Positions 2 to 38,058 of a stretch of DNA of 40,338 bases are shown piece by piece. Both the position numbers and the translations under genes were made by a program. The notes beneath the pieces were generated by a model that worked only from the letters and a program-made list of their open reading frames with translations, did no database searches and was not told where the DNA came from. Each line of letters starts with the position of its first letter. The stretch's first letter is position 1. This stretch comes from Verrucomicrobiota bacterium (GTDB lineage Bacteria > Verrucomicrobiota > Verrucomicrobiia > Opitutales > UBA953): contig JAURJZ010000084.1 in assembly GCA_030831965.1 (NCBI GenBank), positions 1 to 40,338 on the forward strand. The letters are read 5' to 3'.

Positions 2-157
2 GAGATTGTGGTGGCGCTGACGGGCGCGGACGCGCCGACCCCGAGGTGGCGTCCCTTGGCGTGGCGGGTGAGCATCCTGGGGCCCGATGGCAAGGAGCTG
101 GCGGTGAGGAGGAGTTTCCTCTGGGGGATGCCGACGGACACGGGGTTGGGGAAGTGA
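2..157 (+). CDS. C-terminal fragment of an unknown protein (cut by window edge)
   Basis: An open frame runs from the left edge to a TGA at 155-157, giving about 51 residues that end in PTDTGLGK. Base composition by codon position looks coding (G or C in nearly every third position) and the frame is uninterrupted. The fragment includes the stretch WRVSILGPDGKELAVRRSFLW read in two parts, which suggests a beta-rich domain end, but I do not recognise a family. It ends 277 bases before the glycosylase start. Without the N-terminal part no function can be given; the upstream contig would settle it. Confidence 0.5.
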   Translation, partial: EIVVALTGADAPTPRWRPLAWRVSILGPDGKELAVRRSFLWGMPTDTGLGK

Positions 158-3978: not shown

Positions 3979-3980
3979 GG

Positions 3981-10310: not shown

Positions 10311-10319
10311 GGGGGGTGC

Positions 10320-10348: not shown

Positions 10349-10367
10349 GAGGGGATGCGGCTTGCCC
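10343..10367. repeat. Inverted GGGCAAG-N11-CTTGCCC pair between divergent genes
   Basis: The arms 10343-10349 and 10361-10367 are exact reverse complements separated by 11 bases. They sit between cimA (minus) and the secreted-protein gene (plus). Each arm could be a -35 element for one of the divergent genes, or together they could be an operator. A similar pair lies at 35438-35457. Confidence 0.5.
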
Positions 10368-10387
10368 CGGGCCGAGGACCCCCTGAA

Positions 10388-11155
10388 ATGGGAGGAATGC
10401 GCGTCCTGCCCGCCATCCTGGCCGTCCTGGCCGGCCTCGGGGCGAGCACCCGCCCCGCCTTGGCGCAGTGGGAGATCTTCGCCGAGCGGATGCCGGCGGA
10501 CGGCAGCTGGGCGACGTACCGCATGAGCGCGATCGAGGAGGGGAAGCCGGACAAGGTGACGGAGGTCAAGGTCAGCTCGCGGGACGGCACGGTGGTCCGG
10601 GGCGTGCCCTGCGTCTGGCTGGAGATCGAGCCGGTGAAGTGGCTGGGGCAGCGCAACAAGGGCCGGCTGAGCTTCCTGATCCCTAGGACGATGGACCGGG
10701 AGAAGGCCGGCCGCCTGATCCACGAGGCCTTCGAGATCCTGTTCACGGACCCGGTGCGCGGCCCCTGGCACATGCGGCCGGAGGATGTGGCGGATGTCTG
10801 CGAGCTGGTCGAGCTGAGGGCGGTGTGGAAGTTCACGCCGCAGGGCGAGGAGGCGGCCAAGGACGGCAAGGGGGTGACGCACCCCTGCTCGAGGATCGGG
10901 CTGAGGGGCGACCTCAGCCTGGACCCGCCGCTGCTCAAGCGGATTGACACCGTCCTCGAGGGCGTGATTTGGCGGGACGAGTCGAAGCCCTTCGGGGTGG
11001 TGCGGGCGGAGTGGGTGATGACGGAGAGGAAGGGTTCCGACACCGAGGTGGAGCGGCGCCGGATGGAGCTCCTGGAGTGGGGCCGGGAGGCGGCGCCGCC
11101 CAAGCCGATCGAGCACGGGGACCGGTTCACGTACTGGAAACTCATCCGGCGCTGA
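10388..11155 (+). CDS. Secreted protein of unknown function
   Basis: The product has 255 residues. An N-terminal signal peptide (MRVLPAILAVLAGLGAS...PALA, cleavage before QWEIF) sends it across the inner membrane. The mature part is about 225 residues, mixed alpha/beta by appearance, with no motif I recognise. It reads like a protein measuring or binding something (DGSWATYRMS, VPCVWLEIEPVKW) but no function can be assigned. ATG 10388 has GAGGA 10 bases upstream; ATG 10397 in the same frame is preceded directly by GGAGG and is the alternative. It is divergent from cimA and 80 bases before the cytochrome/DUF1549 gene. Confidence 0.7.
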   Translation: MGGMRVLPAILAVLAGLGASTRPALAQWEIFAERMPADGSWATYRMSAIEEGKPDKVTEVKVSSRDGTVVRGVPCVWLEIEPVKWLGQRNKGRLSFLIPRTMDREKAGRLIHEAFEILFTDPVRGPWHMRPEDVADVCELVELRAVWKFTPQGEEAAKDGKGVTHPCSRIGLRGDLSLDPPLLKRIDTVLEGVIWRDESKPFGVVRAEWVMTERKGSDTEVERRRMELLEWGREAAPPKPIEHGDRFTYWKLIRR

Positions 11156-14433: not shown

Positions 14434-14440
14434 CCCAACC

Positions 14441-16804: not shown

Positions 16805-16854
16805 GGTTAAAGGGGCACAGGGGCCCGGCGGCGCGGGAGGCTGGGTGAATTAAT

Positions 16855-18435: not shown

Positions 18436-18630
18436 GGGAAAAGAGGGGAGAAGATGGACGGGGAGCTAGGAACGAAGAACCAAAAAGGCGGACGAGGCGA
18501 GGGACGAATAGGGACTAGCGGGGACCAGGGGGGACGAAAGACGAAAAACATGGGATGAAGGCAAGGGCATGGGGTCGCGTGTGTTCGTTTTTTCGTTCTT
18601 CGCTCCACGTTCCTAGGCTAGCGTGAGGCC
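18436..18630. other. Divergent spacer between dapL and tspO with GACGAA-type repeated words
   Basis: No gene is visible. The spacer carries several degenerate copies of GGGACGAA/GACGAAA (about 18500-18550) and the inverted TTCGTTTTTTCGTTCTTCG near 18586. CGAGGGACGAA here also occurs, inverted, near 294-304. Promoters for dapL and tspO must lie here, but no clear -35/-10 pair stands out. Confidence 0.5.
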
Positions 18631-19107
18631 ATGTCCTCCCCGTCGCGCGGCACCTTCTGGAACCTCCTTGGCCTGCTGGCGCTGTGCTACGGGGTGGCGG
18701 CCTTGGGCGGCTGGTCGACATCCCAGGGCGTCCGGGAATGGTACCCTGCGCTGGCCAAGCCGCCGCACACGCCGCCGAGCTGGGTGTTCGGGCAGGTCTG
18801 GACAATTCTTTACGGGCTGATGGCGGCGAGCCTATGGCGGGTTTGGCGCCACCCCGAGGCCGGAACGGCCAAGGCCCTCTTCTGGGCGCTGCTCCTGACC
18901 AACGCCGCCTGGTCGCACCTGTTCTTCGGCCTGAGGCGGCCGGACCTGGCGCTGGTGGACATCGCCCTCTATCTCGCGCTTCTGGCGGGCATGGTCCGCG
19001 AGTTGGCCAAGCTGGACCGGCCCGCCGCTTGGCTGCAGGCGCCCCACCTGGCCTGGGTGGCCTACGCCTCGACCATCAACGCCGGGGTGTGGTGGCTGAA
19101 CCGGTGA
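18631..19107 (+). CDS. tspO: TspO/MBR-family membrane protein
   Basis: Five-helix membrane protein of 158 residues related to the mitochondrial translocator protein; bacterial members bind porphyrins and are linked to oxidative or light-stress responses. The family motif between helices 1 and 2 is clear (EWYPALAKPPHTPPSWVFG, QVWTILYGLMAASLW). The helix 3 segment NAAWSHLFFGLRRPDLALVD and the end YASTINAGVWWLN are also present. The usual W-P-LFF Pro is His here (WSHLFF). It converges with the glycosidase-like gene, with 3 bases between stops. No carotenoid or haem genes adjoin it. Confidence 0.93.
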   Translation: MSSPSRGTFWNLLGLLALCYGVAALGGWSTSQGVREWYPALAKPPHTPPSWVFGQVWTILYGLMAASLWRVWRHPEAGTAKALFWALLLTNAAWSHLFFGLRRPDLALVDIALYLALLAGMVRELAKLDRPAAWLQAPHLAWVAYASTINAGVWWLNR

Positions 19108-25181: not shown

Positions 25182-25186
25182 GGCGC

Positions 25187-26524: not shown

Positions 26525-26550
26525 GGGAAAGGGGCTGGGGGCTGGACGCT

Positions 26551-27051: not shown

Positions 27052-27054
27052 GGG

Positions 27055-27828: not shown

Positions 27829-27830
27829 GG

Positions 27831-35402: not shown

Positions 35403-35437
35403 CCCGGGCAGGCTGGATGGGAGGGGGCGGGGGTCAA

Positions 35438-35457
35438 CTGGCAAGGGAACTTGCCAG
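35438..35457. promoter_or_regulatory. Perfect inverted repeat between epimerase and phosphatase genes
   Basis: CTGGCAAG-GGAA-CTTGCCAG has 8-bp arms (35438-35445, 35450-35457) around four bases. It lies 36 bases before the epimerase GTG and 28 before the phosphatase ATG. It may be an operator, or two back-to-back -35 boxes, since each strand carries TTGCCA. Confidence 0.55.
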
Positions 35458-35484
35458 CGGCCGGGATTGTCCGAGGTTCAAGGC

Positions 35485-36556: not shown

Positions 36557-38058
<1,502 letters not shown>

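Follow-up and report, generated by a model that had tools for sequence, protein, structure and literature searches.

Translation starts in a GC-rich Opitutales bacterium: scarce Shine-Dalgarno sequences, a CC pair before the start codon and promoters in a leaderless-type register

Gene starts in the window

The DNA analysed here (the window) is a 40,338-nt contig, JAURJZ010000084.1, of a freshwater Opitutales (Verrucomicrobiota) bacterium with a streamlined genome rich in guanine and cytosine (1.85 Mb in 96 contigs, 98% complete, GC 70-72%). It carries, among others, eno, xylA, dapL, panC, cimA, amt and rpmB, a dehydrogenase and a sialidase gene, and a PSD1/DUF1553 gene followed in the same operon by a DUF1501 gene; our subject is the sequence that directly precedes their start codons. 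A sequence-only reading of the window had claimed that translation begins there without Shine-Dalgarno (SD) sequences, after C-rich pyrimidine tracts, and had taken the genes as certain. The upstream sequences that it quoted, for eno, xylA, dapL, panC, cimA, the dehydrogenase, amt, DUF1501 and the sialidase, read as written. Its gene identities stand for eno, xylA, dapL, panC, cimA, amt and rpmB, all of which score above NCBIfam cut-offs, while Pfam alone places the dehydrogenase and the sialidase, at family level. The best named matches of the enolase among the matches listed are from Opitutae, mostly metagenome assemblies, and reach 87% at best.

Among the 32 starts called in the window, CC occupies positions -2 and -1 in 21 and CCCC lies within the last 15 nt in 12. 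An SD-like sequence, that is, SD4 (GGAG, GAGG or AGGA) or AAGG at -18..-4, precedes 6 of them. The genes quoted in the sequence-only reading are the C-rich portion of this gene list. Genes were then called over a larger part of the genome with a caller of our own, based on codon statistics and devoid of a ribosome-site model, after masking the tRNAs. It was run on 679 kb first and then on 296 kb examined after the patterns had emerged, giving a combined set of 976 kb and 786 starts.

Shine-Dalgarno scarcity and the bases at -2 and -1

SD4 was not commoner before starts than away from them: it occurred in 89/786 genes at the start zone (-18..-4) and in 126/786 at a control zone (-48..-34). With a comparable caller, SD sequences were evident in the positive controls, where the counts at the start and control zones were 44/89 vs 2 in E. 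coli, 109/255 vs 22 in a Cupriavidus replicon (64% GC) and 39/88 vs 13 in Rhodococcus pRHL1. A genome-wide GGAGG peak, named beforehand as the result that would contradict SD-independent initiation, was looked for and none appeared, so that this part of the sequence-only reading is supported.

We also inspected ribosomal-protein genes whose starts had been set by aligning up to 21 genomes, leaving out families found in fewer than 12 of the 21 and three families whose start column was common to less than 70% of the genomes; some of the columns kept are doubtful (e.g. R35). SD4 preceded 1/23 of these starts here, 2/22 in G055 and 3/25 in G006; in the genomes of genus g3 (G007, G011, G020) the counts were 6 to 9 of 23-24. 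SD use has been kept or lost unevenly across Opitutales and is near nil in this genome. Two other genomes of the order, G040 and G052, have SD4 in 12/24 and 13/25 of their ribosomal-protein starts. As to the 3′ end of the 16S rRNA, which had been proposed as a check, CCUCC is intact in one 16S of the family, from another genus (G029), whose tail ends GGATCACCTCCTTT and whose genus retains some SD use. The window's genome yielded no 16S, a negative of little weight given that the family search overlooked 5 of 14 control genomes.

C at -1 and -2 does mark the starts, most strongly in operon genes that begin 2-15 nt past the preceding stop codon: these have CC at -2,-1 in 88/133 cases, and A or T at -1 in 1/133. 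In operon spacers of 4-40 nt, CC was present in 99/170, compared with 53.6 (standard deviation 5.6) after within-spacer shuffling, and 0/5000 shuffles reached 99; two pyrimidines (YY) were found in 107/170 vs 76.5 shuffled. The later 296-kb set gave 24/36 operon genes with CC and, against shuffling, 20/33 vs 11.1 (standard deviation 2.6, shuffled maximum 21). By class, in the first set, CC preceded 64/97 genes at 2-15 nt, 51/113 at 16-60 nt, 50/102 at more than 60 nt, 64/148 divergent genes and 14/90 that overlap or adjoin their neighbour. C at -2 was found in 60% of all genes and the signal had gone weak by -3. By comparison, CC stood before 15/103 ATG triplets in convergent spacers and before 364/2827 and 538/3997 (13.5%) internal ATG triplets. 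Upstream of the enolase gene, in 79 of 80 kept loci (L154, cut at a contig end, was omitted), C was at -1 in 52, C at -2 in 30, CC in 16 and SD4 in 6.

The pyrimidine signal of the sequence-only reading therefore holds for positions -2 and -1, and the remainder reflects a general bias of C over G around starts. CCCC occurred in 23.8% of genes at -17..-3, 25.3% at -30..-16 and 17.3% at -45..-31 (n = 533), and the long C-rich tract was rejected as a signal because it is not start-specific. Another idea, that CC is avoided ahead of internal ATG to protect against false starts, was also discarded: CC preceded 13.5% of them vs 19.7% among codon ends, yet for CCC, ACG and CCG the figures were lower, and in one other frame ATG equalled ATC (23.2% and 23.3%). 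As a separate observation on overlapping genes, CGA is a frequent final codon of the upstream gene in ATGA overlaps, despite a very high GC content at third codon positions.

Promoter register, RNA folding and recurrence in relatives

A second signal, overlooked in the sequence-only reading, is a predicted sigma70-type promoter positioned for transcription to begin at the start codon. Of the 520 genes that have upstream space, 58 carry a TTG whose first base is at -35 and 40 carry one at -34, the mean elsewhere being 8.5 and the maximum 19. Of those 98 genes, 55% have A at -11 and 58% have T at -7, the two best-kept bases of the -10 box. In the later 296-kb set, TTG was at this register in 29/157. 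C occupies -2 in 44% of the TTG genes vs 81% of the operon genes of the first set, which separates the two groups; C is at -1 in 76% of the TTG genes and CC in 38%. Since transcription, too, has a rule that a pyrimidine precedes its start site (the pyrimidine-purine, or YR, rule; PMC4782308; this and the other papers cited by PMC number are represented here by excerpts), the C at -1 in TTG genes may serve transcription. What had been proposed as a short-leader signal is supported in a sharper form, in that a sizeable minority of the genes with upstream space look fully leaderless. In close relatives (L124-L143), a block like CCCTACCCCTATAGG and then a short pyrimidine-rich leader (e.g. ttcattttccatc) precede the eno ATG; this shared block looks like a -10 element plus a short leader.

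Folding energies also differed between the two groups. Genes located 2-60 nt past a co-directional neighbour and without TTG at -35 had a mean folding energy of -7.3 kcal/mol at -20..19 and of -12.7 kcal/mol at 40..79 (150/252 genes), while TTG genes (n = 99) had -10.4 kcal/mol at -20..19 and -8.1 kcal/mol at 0..39. In the presumed leaderless genes the RNA is relaxed from the start codon onward, in the others already ahead of it, which is what two modes of initiation would predict. Low mRNA structure is the likeliest partner of CC.

Most, though not all, Opitutales samples repeat the TTG register and the CC signal. For relatives of intermediate GC content, a variant replaced the first caller (which had found 46 genes in 100 kb of G006); on the E. 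coli locus L305 this variant recovered 49/54 genes, 41 with the annotated start, the 54 being taken from 56 listed coding sequences with rpmJ and a cut rplV omitted. Since coverage was 0.58-0.88 in these mid-GC relatives, the relatives are used as support only; G049 gave little usable data (27 starts), and the pooling of Opitutales loci from many species in the TTG and CC tests means that codon models are mixed there. In close named relatives with a GC fraction of at least 0.64, TTG was at -34/-35 in 18/81 genes and TAnnnT at -12 in 8/81, with 0 in eight other listed registers; in those of 56-64% GC the counts were 13/98 and 5/98. In distant Opitutales of 56-64% GC, TAnnnT was at -12 in 10/307 (0-3 in other registers). 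Five pools of named Opitutales loci gave CC counts of 10/24, 15/30, 9/17, 18/48 and 3/31, the shuffled means being 7.8, 8.5, 4.2, 8.6 and 2.6, respectively. In the controls, CC was at 6/39 vs 3.7 in Cupriavidus and 1/28 vs 0.6 in E. coli, where enrichment was weak (C at -1 8/28 vs 4.5, YY 7/28 vs 3.5). The CC pair is a stronger form of a wider preference and depends on GC content.

The sites in the window are collected in the table. The open frame of eno (36557-38026, minus strand) extends upstream into a tRNA-Val gene (37982-38058), and the aligned enolase start is 37888.

Table. Upstream sites, starts and candidate promoters in the window (1-based window positions)
Feature	Position	Strand	Details
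Spacer before DUF1501 ATG	14434..14440	+	cccaacc, whole 7-nt operon spacer from the PSD1/DUF1553 stop; CC at 14439-14440
Upstream of eno ATG	37889..37897	-	ccccttccc directly before the ATG (start 37888); CC at -2,-1
Upstream of xylA ATG	26525..26534	-	cccctttccc (start 26524); CC at -2,-1
Upstream of dapL ATG	18436..18448	-	cccctcttttccc (start 18435); CC at -2,-1
Upstream of panC ATG	16805..16815	-	cccctttaacc (start 16804); CC at -2,-1
Upstream of cimA ATG	10311..10316	-	cccccc (start 10310); CC at -2,-1
Gfo/Idh/MocA dehydrogenase start	22435		
amt start	2865		
Sialidase start	32946	+	
Spacer before ParA-like ATPase gene	27829..27830	-	TGA-CC-GTG; 2-base operon spacer is CC alone
Operon spacer	27052..27054	-	TGA-CCC-GTG; 3-base spacer
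Operon spacer	3979..3980	-	TGA-CC-GTG; 2-base spacer
Operon spacer before ATG	25182..25186	-	gcgcc, 5-base spacer; CC at -2,-1
Candidate leaderless promoter	10362..10396	+	TTG at -35 (10362-10364), A at -11, start 10397; register inferred from the genome-wide peak
Candidate leaderless promoter	35451..35484	+	TTG at -34 (35451-35453), A at -11, T at -7, start 35485
Candidate leaderless promoter	35403..35437	-	TTG at -35, GTG start 35402; start uncertain (TTG 35444 is an alternative call)
-10-like element, TspO-family gene	18619..18624	+	TAGCGT at -12..-7, ATG at 18631; no TTG at -35

Interpretation and comparison with known systems

The explanation that we consider probable is that initiation in this genome is mostly SD-free and proceeds in two modes, with leaderless first genes on the one hand and low-structure, usually CC-preceded starts elsewhere. 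In many first genes, transcription would begin exactly at the start codon. In operon genes and genes with leaders, the start would lie in RNA of low structure, which at 70-72% GC may be achieved by using C and sparing G; for operon genes placed 2-15 nt past a stop codon, reinitiation by the terminating ribosome would fit.

A number of results weigh against this two-mode explanation. The leaderless share, about 31% of the genes with upstream space, comes from a mixture fit made without a shuffled control, and CC persists in 38% of the TTG genes. Ribosomal-protein genes have no extra C at -2 (13/23 vs 60% of all genes), and in the 51 ATGA overlaps of the first 679 kb the start is preceded by CG (21) more often than by CC (9) or GC (7). 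Recurrence is also incomplete: distant Opitutales with a GC fraction of at least 0.64 show no TTG peak (3, 4 and 6 at -34..-36, 2.8 elsewhere), CC does not clearly exceed the shuffled level in close GC-rich relatives (10/24 vs 7.8), and it is not enriched in Opitutales below 56% GC (3/31 vs 2.6), where C at -1 still reaches 17/31 vs 8.5. Cupriavidus, an SD user, is enriched as well (C at -1 25/39 vs 12.0, YY 14/39 vs 7.3), so that part of the mark is general and only the CC pair looks special. As for folding, Cupriavidus shows the structure dip too, and shuffled windows are nearly as relaxed (-7.8 vs -7.3 kcal/mol at -20..19), which means that the dip is mostly base composition, C-rich and G-poor. 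Finally, the gene starts are predictions, and all the evidence here, namely the lack of SD sequences, the promoter register, CC at -2/-1 and the low folding energy, is computed from sequence.

A more specific proposal is that CC at -2/-1 is an element read by the ribosome that replaces the SD sequence in downstream operon genes, many first genes being leaderless; we regard it as possible but doubtful. Selection of the start codon by the two cytosines that precede it would then fall to the terminating ribosome or to the E-site mRNA channel, and initiation would be split by gene position, with the SD sequence used in neither mode. At the opposite end, the CC pair might be a functionless bias of C-dominated upstream bases in a GC-rich genome. 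Operon spacers do contain 54% C even without their last two bases, C exceeds G far upstream too, the longer C tract is not specific to starts and the enrichment of C at -1 extends to Cupriavidus. Pure composition is nevertheless improbable and was rejected, because shuffling within spacers preserves composition and yet falls far below the observed count, because CC is rare before internal ATG and ATG in convergent spacers, and because A and T are nearly absent from -1 in operon starts.

The translation machinery offers three further accounts. That a C-rich or pyrimidine-rich leader lets bS1 bring the mRNA to the 30S subunit without an SD sequence would suit the bS1 gene present in the genome, in which a single frame holds six S1 domain matches, and the pyrimidine-rich eno leader of close relatives noted above. 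It is no likelier than composition, since the leader tract is not start-specific, the preference described for bS1 is U-rich (PMC5397173) whereas the sites here are C-rich, and in most coupled operon genes the spacer is too short for a separate site. Sequestration of the 16S tail by bS21, bS18 and bS6, as in Bacteroidia, is unlikely though somewhat less so, and it is compatible with the two-mode explanation, of which it could be the cause. SD sequences are scarce, yet the CCUCC tail is intact in the single 16S read from the family; a bS21 gene is present. In F. johnsoniae, Tyr54 of bS21 redirects the 16S tail (PMC9976891), and bS21 here has Phe55 at that position according to the offset in the hit table (query 5-50 to 7jil 4-49). 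Tyr54 itself is absent, however, the Phe is placed by extension past the aligned part, and Phe occurs in all 22 readable bS21 proteins of 30 relatives, including those of the SD-retaining G040 and G052. Finally, the bases at -1 and -2 might pair with the initiator tRNA beside its anticodon, and other work has tied -1 to base pairing with fMet-tRNA (PMC5622118). This is very improbable and was rejected: the initiator loop is an ordinary CTCATAA, in G000 as well as in every one of the 30 loci read from relatives, and its A37 and A38 would pair with U, so that C at -1/-2 cannot pair with them. On the initiator tRNA itself, U1 faces A72 and C precedes CCA in 30/30 Opitutales loci read (L053-L082; L056 is G000:C7:37398-37475). 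Initiator tRNAs usually have three G:C pairs in the anticodon stem; in these same 30 loci the stem has A29:U41 and thus only two.

The two-mode explanation provides a testable picture of how start codons may be found without SD pairing in a streamlined, GC-rich bacterium. It also has a practical side, as gene finders that rely on SD sequences may misplace starts here, and their placement can draw on the CC pair and on the promoter register. An Opitutaceae bacterium is listed in Table 1 of PMC10039652, which names the ribosome of this lineage among the priorities for structural study.

SD scarcity, leaderless transcripts and a dipyrimidine at -2/-1 have each already been published for other bacteria or for Akkermansia, and what is new here is a clear fresh example. 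Among the papers listed in a literature search, none had a title or opening of the abstract that deals with such starts in Opitutales, which argues only weakly that no such study exists. SD-scarce organisms that bear CCUCC have been described as including Akkermansia and Verrucomicrobia bacterium IMCC26134 (PMC10783764). The likeness lies in the few SD:anti-SD pairs and the kept CCUCC; the excerpt from that paper describes neither CC at -2/-1 nor a promoter register, and the 16S considered here is from another genus of the family. In Akkermansia muciniphila, a member of the same phylum, Cappable-seq located 10% of the start sites at annotated gene starts (PMC4782308). Leaderless transcripts were measured there, whereas here they are deduced from promoter position, and our 31% refers to a different denominator, the genes with upstream space. 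The Bacteroidia with sequestered anti-SD (PMC9976891) resemble this genome in keeping CCUCC while hardly using SD sequences, and differ in the bS21 marker, since Tyr54 is replaced here by a Phe at the offset-extended position. In Cyanobacteria, a dipyrimidine at -2/-1 (cited in PMC5622118) likewise accompanies little SD use, in another phylum, and the operon starts here have C with very little T. For several phyla, non-SD starts with a C right in front of them and weak structure on both sides have been reported (PMC5397173), in a paper whose main text does not contain the word Verrucomicrobia; the C immediately before the start and the low structure on both sides are shared with the starts described here.
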